Part shown: in pieces, positions 3,614 to 27,634 of the stretch
Numbering within the stretch: position 1 is the stretch's first letter
How the letters are laid out: every line of letters starts with the position of its first letter
The notes under the pieces: generated by a model
Databases searched by the model: none
What the model was told of the DNA's origin: nothing
What the model saw: only the letters and a program-made list of their open reading frames with translations
NCBI GenBank assembly: GCA_021162545.1
Contig: JAGGYM010000006.1
Location: 1 to 39,482 of the forward strand
Reading direction: 5' to 3'
Length of the DNA stretch: 39,482 nucleotides
From: Dehalococcoidia bacterium
GTDB taxonomy: Bacteria; Chloroflexota; Dehalococcoidia; GIF9; AB-539-J10
Program-made: the position numbers and the translations under genes

Positions 3614-3635
3614 AAAAAACTTCAGAAATTCTCTG
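3614..3635 (-). terminator. Weak intrinsic terminator candidate after tRNA-Arg
   Basis: On the minus strand, the last bases of the tRNA and the following sequence can form a 5-bp hairpin (CAGAG / TTCTG, with one G-T pair and a 3-nt loop). AAG and six T residues follow. The stem is short and overlaps the encoded CCA end, so this is a tentative call. Confidence 0.3.
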
Positions 3636-3710
3636 GCGTCCCTGGCGGGACTCGAACCCACAACCCTCTGCTTAGAAGGCAGACGCTCTATCCTGTTGAG
3701 CTACAGGGAC
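3634..3710 (-). tRNA. tRNA-Arg (anticodon TCT)
   Basis: Read on the minus strand, this 77-nt gene folds as a complete cloverleaf. The acceptor strands GTCCCTG and CAGGGAC pair fully, the D arm is normal, the anticodon arm is TCTGC-CTTCTAA-GCAGA with anticodon TCT, and the T arm contains GGTTCGAGTCC. The discriminator is G and the CCA end is encoded. It reads AGA (and AGG by wobble). It stands alone between secF (opposite strand) and the Fe-S protein gene. A damaged copy of its 5' 43 nt plus upstream flank lies at 4807-4853. Confidence 0.97.
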
Positions 3711-3834
3711 AAACGTAAAGACAAAGTTAAAAGTTCACAACTGAACTGCTTGGGAAGTTTATCATCTCCAGCACATCAGGGACAACTCGGAAGACAACAA
3801 CTATTTATCCTCTGAATGGTAAACAAAAGTTCTT

Positions 3835-4581
3835 TTAACTTAAAGCTCGCTCCATCAAATTTTGAAGAACCTCATGCCCACACTGTTGTTCCCTACCCGC
3901 GGGGCACACTTTCAGGCACTCTGAGCAGAGCCCCACTCCAGCATAGTAGGTATTACAGGCATATTTATCAACGTGATAGGTCTCACCCTCCTCAGGTTTG
4001 CCAATCGCCCGCACCGGACATACCCGGACGCAGGCCCCCTGGCACTTTATACAGGGATTCCCCATCTCTATTACCGGCGTAGACGCCAGAGGCGCATCGG
4101 TGACCACACAGGCAAATCTCACCCTCGAGCCATATTCCGGCATTATCAGCATACTATGCCAGTCGAATATGCCCAGTCCCGCCGCCTGAGCTACGTGCTT
4201 AAAGGATATTTCACCTTCCAGGAACCGTTCGTCAAACACGCCACCATCCGGCAGCGGCAGGCCTTTAAAACCATTATTATGCAAACCTTTCACCAACTGG
4301 TAAGCCTCCCAGTTCAGTAAGCCCCCGACCAGTTCAGTATTTTTCAGGTAAAGGTCACGGAGTGCCATCTCCCCCACCCAGACTCTGGAAGCTATATGGC
4401 TCACGACTTCCTGAAACACCTCCAATGCCAGCACAATTATAGAACTGGCCCCAGGTAATAGCCTTGTTGCCTTCTCCCTGATTTCGGTGCCCGGCAAATC
4501 ATCCAGGCTGGCTACGCCTACCTTGTCCACTTCCAGCTTTCCCAGCAGAGCATATATCTCTTCCGTTTTTTCTTCGTTCAT
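3835..4581 (-). CDS. Short QueG/RdhA-like protein with two 4Fe-4S clusters
   Basis: From ATG at 4581 this encodes 248 residues. An upstream GTG in frame at 4626 exists, but GGGAGG lies 10-11 nt before the ATG and nothing similar precedes the GTG. The middle resembles epoxyqueuosine reductase (LLPGASSIIVLAL at about 41-53; AGLGIFDWHSMLIMPEYGSR at about 134-153; VVTDAPL). The C-terminal part has two ferredoxin-type cysteine sets, C177-C180-C184-C188 and C209-C219-C222-C226. The first set has three residues rather than the usual two between its second and third cysteines. The family (QueG and reductive dehalogenases) binds cobalamin and two Fe-S clusters. This protein is far shorter than QueG (about 380) and has no signal peptide, so it is probably a cytoplasmic reductase of unknown substrate. 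Assignment to the superfamily is firm; the exact function is not. Confidence 0.85.
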   Translation of the reverse strand: MNEEKTEEIYALLGKLEVDKVGVASLDDLPGTEIREKATRLLPGASSIIVLALEVFQEVVSHIASRVWVGEMALRDLYLKNTELVGGLLNWEAYQLVKGLHNNGFKGLPLPDGGVFDERFLEGEISFKHVAQAAGLGIFDWHSMLIMPEYGSRVRFACVVTDAPLASTPVIEMGNPCIKCQGACVRVCPVRAIGKPEEGETYHVDKYACNTYYAGVGLCSECLKVCPAGREQQCGHEVLQNLMERALS

Positions 4582-4646
4582 GGTCCGGTAACCCTCCCAT
4601 AAGCTACCCTGACTCCCTGCCAGCACCTGTTTAGCAGGGCCAGTGT

Positions 4647-4677
4647 ATCATACAATTTCAAACTCCTTCCAAGTCAA
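4647..4677 (-). promoter_or_regulatory. Possible sigma-70 promoter for the Fe-S protein gene
   Basis: On the minus strand, TTGACT (4677-4672) and TATGAT (4652-4647) are separated by 19 nt, a little longer than optimal. It would give a leader of roughly 60 nt before the ATG at 4581. Confidence 0.4.
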
Positions 4678-4806
4678 GATAAGCCTGAAGGGAAGGACGA
4701 TTTCTAAGAGCTACTTAAGTATGATTTTGCCAGGGCAAAGGAAAGCAAATCTTGAATCGGCTGAGAGAGTAAGTTCACCGCTACCTATGAACTCCAAAGC
4801 TGAATT

Positions 4807-4853
4807 CTGCTTAAAAGACAACTGCTCCATCCTGTTAGCTACAGAGACGAACG
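4807..4853 (-). pseudogene. Degenerate 5' half of tRNA-Arg
   Basis: This 47-nt stretch aligns with 3668-3715 (the first 43 nt of tRNA-Arg plus 5 nt of upstream flank) with 39 identities over 48 columns and one gap, in the same orientation. It covers the 5' acceptor strand, D arm and anticodon arm. The anticodon stem is damaged and the T arm and 3' acceptor strand are missing, so it cannot be a working tRNA. It is 1.1 kb from the intact gene, and the two copies bracket the Fe-S protein gene. Confidence 0.75.
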
Positions 4854-4891: not shown

Positions 4892-5143
4892 TCATGGAGT
4901 GACTTTCGAGGCGCTACCGCCACTTTTAGATTCAGGAGGAGGCGCCGCCGCGGGATTTTTCGCCCCAGACCTGGAGTCAGTGACATAAAATCCGGGCCCT
5001 TTAAATATTATCGGCACTGGAGAGAAAACCCTCCTGGCACTCCCCTGACACACAGGACATGTAGCTATCGATTTATCATTAAAAGCTTGCCGCAACTCAA
5101 ACGTTGATTCACACTCATCACACTTATATTGATAAATGGGCAT
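4892..5143 (-). CDS. FmdB-family zinc ribbon protein
   Basis: The 83-residue protein opens with MPIYQYKCDECESTFE and has two CxxC pairs (CDEC near residue 8 and CPVC near residue 34) followed by ARRVFSPVPIIFKGPGFYVTD. This is the standard layout of the FmdB putative regulatory zinc ribbon family. The C-terminal third is a flexible Ala/Pro/Ser/Gly-rich tail. The family is widespread and its role is poorly defined; 'regulatory' comes from the amidase/formamidase operons in which it was named. The gene starts 2 nt after the stop of the upstream small zinc protein, so the two form one transcription unit. Confidence 0.9.
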   Translation of the reverse strand: MPIYQYKCDECESTFELRQAFNDKSIATCPVCQGSARRVFSPVPIIFKGPGFYVTDSRSGAKNPAAAPPPESKSGGSASKVTP

Positions 5144-25744: not shown

Positions 25745-26167
25745 TTGGTGGAAAGAGCTTTTGAGACCTTCGACCACACCGCCGATGCGGGCATCGTTGC
25801 CTACGGAGTGAACATGAGGCAGCTTTTTACCAATGCGGCCATGGGCTTATTCAACTTGGTTGCCGACACATCGAGCATCGAGCATAAGCTGGAACGGCAG
25901 GTAGAAATACAGGACAGTGACAGCGAAAATTTGCTGGTAGCGTGGCTCAATGAGCTCATCTATCTCTTCGACGCTGAGCAACTCTTGTTCAGCGACTTCG
26001 AAATCGAAAGCTTGTCCGGCAACTGTCTCAAAGCCACCTGCTTTGGAGAAAAATTTGACCCTGCCAAACACAGATTAAAAACGGGAGTTAAGGCTGCCAC
26101 CTACCATATGCTGAAAATAACCACAGACAGCAACGGTTACAGAACCAGGATAATCTTCGATATTTAG
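25745..26167 (+). CDS. Archease
   Basis: Archease is a small protein that speeds guanylylation of RtcB and allows multiple turnover. The 140 residues contain the family hallmark FDHTADAGIVAYG at about 8-20 and end with an Asp-containing strand (RIIFDI), matching the metal-binding acidic residues. TTG at 25745 or GTG at 25748 may be the start; neither has a clear ribosome binding site. The rtcB gene follows after 9 nt, the pairing common in archaea and some bacteria. Confidence 0.94.
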   Translation: MVERAFETFDHTADAGIVAYGVNMRQLFTNAAMGLFNLVADTSSIEHKLERQVEIQDSDSENLLVAWLNELIYLFDAEQLLFSDFEIESLSGNCLKATCFGEKFDPAKHRLKTGVKAATYHMLKITTDSNGYRTRIIFDI

Positions 26168-26176
26168 GAATTAATC

Positions 26177-27634
26177 ATGACCCAATGGCAAGGGAAACTT
26201 TTCCCCATAGATAATTACCGCTGGCAAATTCCCCGGAACTACAAGGAGGGGATGAAAGTCCCCGGTTTAATCTATGCCAGCCAGGAAATGATGGCCTCCA
26301 TTTGCAAAGAACAAACGCTGGAACAAGTCGCCAACGTCGCTTCTCTTCCTGGCATAGTCAAATATTCTCTAGCCATGCCAGATATCCACTGGGGCTATGG
26401 ATTCCCCATAGGGGGCGTAGCGGCGATGGACTTAGAGGAAGGGGTAATTTCACCGGGAGGAGTAGGCTATGACATCAATTGCGGCGTCAGGATGTTACGC
26501 ACCGATCTCCATGAAAATGATGTCAGGCCCAGGATCGACCGCTTAATCAATGAGCTCTACGATAACGTTCCCTCAGGGCTGGGTTCCGAGGGGAAGGTAA
26601 AGGTAAGCCAGAAAGAGCTGAAGAAACTGATGGTTGAGGGAGCACGCCGGGCAATAAAACTGGGCATGGGATTCGAAGATGACATAGAAACTACAGAGGA
26701 GAATGGATGTCTGGGAGGCGCCGACCCAGAAAAGGTAAGTGACAGGGCCATAAAGAGAGGTATGCCTCAAGCGGGCACGCTGGGCTCAGGAAACCACTTC
26801 CTCGAAATTCAAGCAGTGGAGGAAATCTTCGACCCCCATGCTGCCAGCGTCATGGGCATTAGTGAAATCGGACAGGTTTTGATCCTGATCCACACCGGTT
26901 CCCGCGGTTTCGGCCACCAGGTTTGCACCGACCACCTGCGCGTCATGGAGAAAGCAGTTATTCAATATGGAATAGAGCTCCCTGACCGACAGCTTGCCTG
27001 TGCCCCCATCAATTCCAGAGAGGGCAAGAACTATCTGGCAGCCATGGCATGCGCTGCCAATTATGCCTGGTTTAACCGGCAATGCATTGCCCACTGGACC
27101 AGGGAAAGCTTCTGCAAAGTCCTCGGCAAAAGCGCTGAGGAACTCGGGATAAGACAGATATATGATGTCGCTCATAACATCGCCAAGATAGAAGAACACG
27201 TAGTAGGTGGACAGATGATGAAAGTATGTGTACATCGCAAAGGAGCCACCCGGGCTTTCCCTCCCGGGCATAAAGACATCCCTCAAAGGTATAAGGAGAT
27301 AGGACAACCGGTGCTTATTCCTGGTGATATGGGGCGCTGCTCCTTCATAGCAGCAGGAACGCAGAAAGCGATGGAGGAAACCTTTGGCTCCACATGCCAC
27401 GGTGCAGGGAGGGTGCTCAGCCGTAGTGCCGCCAGACGAAGCATCAGCGGCAGGGACGTAGTTCACGAGATGCAGAAGAGAAACATTACCATCAGGACAG
27501 GAGACATTTCTTCACTGGCAGAAGAGGCATCTCTGGCCTATAAGGACGTCACCGAGGTAATTGACGTCGTTCACCAGAGTGGGATCTCCAGAAAAATAGC
27601 CAGAACGGTGCCCCTGGGCGTTATCAAAGGCTAA
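26177..27634 (+). CDS. rtcB: RNA-splicing ligase RtcB
   Basis: Joins 2',3'-cyclic phosphate (3'-phosphate) and 5'-hydroxyl RNA ends using GTP and manganese. The 485-residue length is that of the archaeal-type enzyme. Metal-site motifs are GGVGYDINCGVRML (Asp, Cys), GTLGSGNHFLE (His), HTGSRGFGHQV (His) and AHNIAKIEEH (His). The catalytic histidine that takes GMP lies in VHRKGATRAFPPGH. All key residues appear intact. It probably serves tRNA repair. It converges with cimA, with 75 nt between and no clear terminator. Confidence 0.97.
   Translation: MTQWQGKLFPIDNYRWQIPRNYKEGMKVPGLIYASQEMMASICKEQTLEQVANVASLPGIVKYSLAMPDIHWGYGFPIGGVAAMDLEEGVISPGGVGYDINCGVRMLRTDLHENDVRPRIDRLINELYDNVPSGLGSEGKVKVSQKELKKLMVEGARRAIKLGMGFEDDIETTEENGCLGGADPEKVSDRAIKRGMPQAGTLGSGNHFLEIQAVEEIFDPHAASVMGISEIGQVLILIHTGSRGFGHQVCTDHLRVMEKAVIQYGIELPDRQLACAPINSREGKNYLAAMACAANYAWFNRQCIAHWTRESFCKVLGKSAEELGIRQIYDVAHNIAKIEEHVVGGQMMKVCVHRKGATRAFPPGHKDIPQRYKEIGQPVLIPGDMGRCSFIAAGTQKAMEETFGSTCHGAGRVLSRSAARRSISGRDVVHEMQKRNITIRTGDISSLAEEASLAYKDVTEVIDVVHQSGISRKIARTVPLGVIKG

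Follow-up and report, generated by a model that had tools for sequence, protein, structure and literature searches.

A short relative of QueG and reductive dehalogenases in a Dehalococcoidia bacterium: a candidate corrinoid reductase or processing protein

Epoxyqueuosine reductase (QueG) and the reductive dehalogenases (RdhA) share a nitroreductase-like corrinoid domain and a ferredoxin part with two [4Fe-4S] clusters, the hallmark of class III enzymes. In the parts of the QueG literature that we draw on, residues 1-181 of S. thermophilus QueG are assigned to the cobalamin domain, 182-257 to the ferredoxin domain, and 258-372 to a HEAT domain; Tyr246 of the dehalogenase PceA lies near Asn272 and Arg305, while QueG has Tyr101 and Asp130 and no equivalent of Arg305 (PMC4646009). 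The same parts describe CblC as having no ferredoxin domain, and allow for additional families that depend on B12 and [4Fe-4S] clusters, noting that a distinct cobalamin-binding motif for finding them is lacking (PMC4646009). The corrin reductase PduS contains a flavin and two [4Fe-4S] centres (PMC2982820), so a corrin-reducing task exists. For the production of NpRdhA and QueG, a B12-importing E. coli strain with BtuB has served (PMC7585037).

Here we analyse P0001, a protein encoded in a 39,482-nt stretch of DNA (the window) from a Dehalococcoidia bacterium. An earlier note had read it as a short cytoplasmic relative of QueG and RdhA, possibly a stand-alone corrinoid reductase whose substrate it left unnamed, and had proposed a structure prediction, a phylogeny with QueG and RdhA, and a genome search for a separate full-length queG.

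The gene and its probable insertion at tRNA-Arg

P0001 is encoded on the minus strand at 3835..4581 (ATG at 4581, stop at 3835-3837, 248 aa); the plus-strand reading of this segment is interrupted by stops. A probable ribosome-binding site, GGGAGGG, read by eye, lies 10 nt 5' of the ATG (4592..4598, minus strand), and an alternative upstream start, GTG at 4626, would give 263 aa. The protein is comprised of a nitroreductase-like corrinoid domain (residues ~1-170), a two-[4Fe-4S] ferredoxin part (~175-230), and an 18-residue low-confidence tail. The codons of residues 177-230, calculated from the ORF coordinates, occupy 3892..4053 of the minus strand. Both cluster quartets are intact, the first formed by C177, C180, C184, and C188, and the second by C209, C219, C222, and C226. 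The length, the eight cysteines, and the first motif, C-x2-C-x3-C-x3-C, agree with the earlier note, to which we add the strand. As judged from the sequence and the model, the domain starts almost at the first residue and there is probably no space for a Tat leader, in keeping with the earlier note. Inspection of the nearby ORFs by eye showed none that resembles RdhB. The GC content of the gene (0.52 vs. 0.50 for the window, 78th percentile) is not foreign-looking.

P0001 is the sole recognised gene of a ∼1.1 kb segment at tRNA-Arg (window 3634-4853) that is absent from the same site in the congener G218. On one side of the segment is the intact tRNA-Arg (TCT; 3634..3710, minus strand), and on the other a degenerate copy of its 5' half (4806..4853, minus strand), matching at 84% over 50 nt with a local score of 54, whereas none of 200 shuffles exceeded 24. 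In G218 (locus L126), tRNA-Arg is directly followed by genes encoding an FmdB-type zinc-ribbon protein and a 103-aa protein, 79% and 68% identical to those of the window, where both lie beyond P0001. The FmdB-type gene (4892..5143, minus strand), adjoining the tRNA in G218, therefore marks the empty site, and the flank of the tRNA remnant is the flank found beside the intact tRNA in G218. The G218 genome is 89% complete, and the contig with the empty site is present. Insertion is a simpler explanation than loss in G218, because the subfamily of P0001 (X, defined below) is otherwise missing from the order: among 84 genomes, an X-level match was found only in the window's own, the best other match scoring 67.1 bits. 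Inspection by eye revealed no ORF resembling an integrase within the insertion, and the tRNA remnant could be a decayed tandem copy instead of an attachment scar. Searches with tblastn gave three weak matches to plasmids (25-29% identity) and no match of P0001 to phages. Elsewhere in the window, archease-like and RtcB-like genes adjoin each other (25745-27634; recognised by eye from translations).

Fold, subfamily, and active-site residues

Among curated models, the best by E-value is that of QueG (TIGR00276; 38.6 bits, cut-off 200, E 6.1e-10); the RdhA model (TIGR02486) yielded 38.5 bits (cut-off 160.35, E 1.2e-9). Pfam detected ferredoxin-type domains only, and hhalign matched P0001 to a three-sequence QueG alignment over 205 columns (E 2.8e-21). 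The AlphaFold2 model, built on 19 aligned sequences, has a mean pLDDT of 86.5 and pTM of 0.84, with the last ∼18 residues near 60. All 46 Foldseek matches at E<=0.001 are chains of QueG, PceA-type RdhA, and NpRdhA, including the reductive dehalogenase 8q4h. The E-values for QueG and dehalogenase chains range from 6e-9 to 3e-6, and the next matches are MMACHC and CblD at ∼0.002. Structural alignment with VIA-align gave Z of 16.7-17.4 over 208-219 residues for class III enzymes (rmsd 2.5-3.7), in particular PceA 4uqu (Z 17.4, rmsd 3.4, 219 residues), QueG 5d6s (Z 17.4, rmsd 3.2, 208 residues), and NpRdhA 4ras (Z 17.3, rmsd 3.0, 212 residues). The Z values were 7.5-9.6 for MMACHC and CblD (3sby: Z 9.6, rmsd 5.7, 185 residues; 5cuz: Z 9.2, rmsd 3.2, 130 residues) and 5.4-6.3 for flavin nitroreductase-type folds.

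The predicted fold is thus the cobalamin-plus-ferredoxin core of PceA, QueG, and NpRdhA, and P0001 has both halves of the class III hallmark (pLDDT 86.5, Z ∼17, eight cysteines kept in 21/21 full-length members of X). The alignment of QueG to the model reaches no further than QueG residue 262 and so leaves out the greater part of the HEAT domain, and P0001 stops just past the ferredoxin part. This means that P0001 is a bare class III core, and that the kinship with QueG and RdhA and the missing QueG C-terminus, both stated in the earlier note, are borne out by the models, hhalign, the fold, and the end of the protein. A chance pattern of cysteines was rejected, as the E-values of the QueG and RdhA models, hhalign, and the fold match are far beyond chance. 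P0001 probably holds a corrinoid and two clusters. Clear membership of a characterised family, which would have spoken against the earlier note, was not found, P0001 scoring below both cut-offs: we rejected RdhA on 38.5 bits vs. 160.35, and QueG on its score, the missing HEAT domain, and the lack of a QueA match in the genome.

A scan of GTDB contigs with P0001 alone confirmed no locus, and a five-sequence profile yielded 19 loci. Together with genome searches, the profile scan defines X as 22 members (P0001, L066-L083, and L171-L173). One of them, L083, is cut at a contig end; it is included in the 22 loci and in the 10 his loci described below, but not in the 21 full-length members. One of the 19 loci, a Spirochaetes candidate (L084, 31%), does not group with X in the tree and was therefore removed from the counts; L089 and L090 were excluded from the tree. 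In the resulting tree of 52 rows, the 21 full-length members form one group on a long branch with 100/100 support, and the four QueG rows form a separate clade (98/94). Hence, X is a discrete subfamily, in which P0001, L066, and L173 comprise a subclade (100/96). Of 393 genomes of the bacterium's class, 12 pass E 1e-35 with a 19-row profile, six of them at >=291.8 bits; counting these six and not the other six (<=141.5 bits), X occurs in 6/393 genomes. The first cluster motif of P0001 is found in 5/21 full-length members, the other 16 having C-x2-C-x2-C-x3-C. The open-access literature that we searched contained no description of short QueG-like proteins.

Arg155 of P0001 falls on Arg305 of PceA, the position being counted by hand along alignments, and is arginine in 20/21 full-length members. 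The column of the E. coli QueG tyrosine holds H, N, D, S, or E, and tyrosine in 0/21 members, in a MAFFT alignment where the placement of the helix is uncertain; in the comparison of X with the D-Y-H and Asp130 of QueG, both helix and Asp placement vary with the alignment. A check free of helix placement agrees: within residues 1-170, tyrosine is absent from the invariant columns, taken from 18 rows, and from the 90%-conserved columns of X, the closest to a conserved one being Tyr94 (18/21). As far as the aligned sequences tell, the tyrosine above the corrin, common to QueG and RdhA, is not invariant in X.

These residues bear on whether P0001 is a class III catalytic enzyme, whose bound cobalamin would reduce a small organic substrate (by dehalogenation, epoxide reduction, or otherwise) using different active-site residues. 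The core shared with RdhA and QueG and the arginine at the hand-counted PceA position agree with such an activity. In addition, one X gene lies 22 bp behind a gene for a fumarate-reductase-like flavoprotein, with HpaI-like and hydratase-like genes nearby (the latter two by eye), which suits a catabolic role. Still, given that the aligned column is without tyrosine in all 21 members, subject to the helix alignment, and that no conserved tyrosine replaces it in residues 1-170, we consider catalysis on an organic substrate unlikely.

P0001 differs from its relatives in a putative corrin-side motif of the G-x2-G-x4-LLIT type, from which it lacks the Gly and the Thr. Residue 140 is D, where 17/17 relatives have G, and residue 147 is M, where 16/17 have T. 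These changes may indicate altered or failing corrinoid binding, or a decaying copy. They would also suit an iron-sulfur electron carrier that has lost its corrinoid, the more so as corrinoid binding in the members of X is itself predicted. But the near-complete retention of both residues in the relatives, the alignment of the model with the corrinoid domain as well as with the ferredoxin, and the position of one X member in a cobalamin run make a mere carrier quite improbable.

Gene neighbourhoods and the B12 and queuosine genes of the genome

In Chloroflexi RBG_16_56_11 (L082), X is part of a same-strand run of btuF-like, btuC-like, btuD-like, cbiB, cobD-like, X, cobT, cobS, cobQ-like, and cobU genes, where it lies between the gene of a CobD-like threonine-phosphate decarboxylase and cobT. 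Of these, cbiB, cobT, cobS, and cobU pass curated cut-offs; the transporter and decarboxylase genes fall below, hence "-like", and the cobQ-like gene, partly masked, was named by eye. A cobalamin riboswitch precedes the run (34.2 bits, gathering score 31.5). No other X locus, as fetched, nor the window has one at the gathering score. At another locus (L078, 8709-8849), a c-di-AMP riboswitch (101.6 bits), encoded on the strand of the X gene, starts 67 bp beyond that gene.

At 10 of the 22 loci, X directly follows hisD; the distance between them, measured at nine of these loci, ranges from -58 to 90 bp. These loci have hisG and mostly also a hisZ-like gene before X, hisC next in the eight with enough contig, and hisB after hisC in the seven where it was seen; the families were checked in L071 and assigned at the remaining loci by clustering or by eye. 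The other 11 loci have mixed or no clear neighbours, and ORF clustering revealed no neighbour common to all X loci. Genes encoding FtsH, TatC, rhomboid-like, flavoprotein, and PatB-like aminotransferase proteins were each seen at one locus, mostly by eye.

One could therefore tie X to histidine biosynthesis, either as an additional redox reaction or as a redox-responsive regulator of the his operon. The hisD-X order has outlasted considerable divergence, as hisD is 57-87% identical (median 64) across nine of the loci. In the window's own genome, moreover, the gene of a PduO-type adenosyltransferase lies directly beside genes that by eye resemble hisA and hisI (L175, positions 1382-2967 of contig C1), a second corrinoid-histidine gene link. 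On the other hand, G218, G009, and G346 have hisD next to hisC with no X between them, and in the window's genome X and hisZ-hisG-hisD are on different contigs. The nine his-linked tree rows all fall within one 13-row group (89/82), so that a single insertion could explain them. We know of no step in the histidine pathway that needs X, and find a histidine function very doubtful. As a clue to function we give more weight to the cobalamin run, though it was found at 1/22 loci, since it is consistent with the fold. The his-operon location is the main point that a corrinoid function leaves unexplained.

The window's genome (1.39 Mb, 99.76% complete) likely has B12 chemistry, as it encodes, in addition to the PduO-type adenosyltransferase, the large and small subunits of methylmalonyl-CoA mutase on one contig and a radical-SAM protein that carries a B12-binding domain. 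The PduO-type adenosyltransferase was not found in any of the three other genomes of the family that were searched (G218, G145, and G082); a search for the PduO type only did not find it in the X genomes G009 (81% complete) and G346 either. P0001 has one match in its own genome at E<=0.001, itself. The search for a separate full-length queG yielded no QueG above the cut-off, the model's only matches being P0001 and two fragments, which cover 26 and 36 model positions. QueA had no match in this nearly complete genome, and QueH, the alternative to QueG, was not found. Judging by these three families, queuosine synthesis by the known route is likely absent, and a queuosine role for P0001 is very unlikely. 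That P0001 is a short epoxyqueuosine reductase acting on tRNA, as the best curated model by E-value might suggest, is extremely improbable, given also the score of 38.6 bits vs. 200, the lack of a HEAT domain, and the separation of the four QueG rows (98/94) from X (100/100).

Our best explanation, a tentative one, is that P0001 works in the cytoplasm as a minimal class-III-like protein that reduces or processes corrinoids. It most likely acts on the corrinoid, since it has no HEAT domain and X does not keep the tyrosine. The searches without a QueA or QueH match, the subfamily, and the cobalamin run of L082 point to the corrinoid itself, not an organic molecule, as the substrate. The earlier suggestion of a stand-alone corrinoid reductase is partly supported and gains a proposed substrate. 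In the proposed mechanism, a base-off corrinoid would sit in the nitroreductase-like domain and receive electrons at its cobalt from an external donor, by way of cluster I and then cluster II. P0001 would reduce Co(III)/Co(II), or reductively strip the upper ligand, and pass the reduced corrinoid to an adenosyltransferase, which would supply AdoCbl enzymes; one of these, methylmalonyl-CoA mutase, is encoded in the window's genome. Broadly, P0001 would amount to a CblC (MMACHC) fold that has acquired a ferredoxin part.

The fold, the cluster ligands, the subfamily, the gene contexts, and the searches for QueA, QueH, and QueG constitute the computational basis; corrinoid binding, the direction of electron flow, the partner, and the substrate we infer. 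For reduction or stripping and handover, we rely on the L082 run, the likeness to MMACHC, the non-conserved tyrosine, the lack of a tRNA domain, and the enzymes of the genome. Counting against corrinoid processing are the single cobalamin run and single cobalamin riboswitch among 22 loci, the his-operon loci, the negative PduO-type search in G009 and G346, the changes at D140 and M147, and the lack of a linked donor, and we regard this role as possible rather than established.

Comparison with known systems

X provides a defined candidate of ∼230-250 residues, with a supported tree, one cobalamin-tied context, and a reaction that can be tested. Corrinoid reduction by X would be relevant to the way in which anaerobes make salvaged corrinoids ready for adenosylation, and would link the evolution of RdhA and QueG to B12 processing proteins. 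Perhaps, though this is doubtful, X is an undescribed bacterial corrinoid-processing enzyme that unites a B12 pocket like that of CblC and a ferredoxin in one protein and achieves Co(I) formation or upper-ligand removal without flavin. It would then be a third branch of class III, one that acts on the corrinoid itself and was on at least one occasion carried as single-gene cargo into a tRNA site.

The bacterium's own class also has other short QueG-like 4Fe-4S proteins. P0001 has matches at E<=1e-3 in 73/197 genomes of the class, including RdhA-like ones and the window's own genome. These short proteins share with P0001 the core length and, by eye, S-x-K/R before A-G-L-G, but form separate branches and score <=141.5 bits with the X profile vs. 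>=291.8 for X. In G040 (contig C219, 7853-9252), two short QueG-like genes (L003 and L164) lie in tandem on the same strand; in G166 (contig C7, 8954-10805), a QueG-like gene with 168 bits, below the cut-off, adjoins a short QueG-like gene on the same strand (L006 and L088).

As for described systems, the task proposed for P0001 is similar to that of the corrin reductases PduS and CobR, but both are flavoproteins, whereas Pfam finds only ferredoxin-type domains in P0001. MMACHC (CblC) and MMADHC (CblD) resemble P0001 in their nitroreductase-like B12 fold (Z 7.5-9.6), to which P0001 adds a ferredoxin part, and, as proposed here, may have a similar task; neither is among the matches listed in the PDB sequence searches with P0001. 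RdhA (PceA 4UQU, NpRdhA 4RAS) has the same core (Z ∼17) and cluster layout, and X has the arginine of its Tyr-Arg pair in 20/21 members without conserving the tyrosine partner. Unlike RdhA, P0001 has 248 aa, no visible Tat leader, and no RdhA-specific extensions, and scores below the family cut-off. QueG (5D08, 5D6S, 5T8Y) likewise shares the cobalamin domain and two-[4Fe-4S] core (Z 16.7-17.4, 205 columns in hhalign). It differs in its HEAT tRNA domain, missing from P0001, whose genome yielded no QueA or QueH, and in its tyrosine, absent from the aligned column of X, which in turn has an arginine at the position of PceA R305. X is a new variant within a known structural class and not a new type of system.
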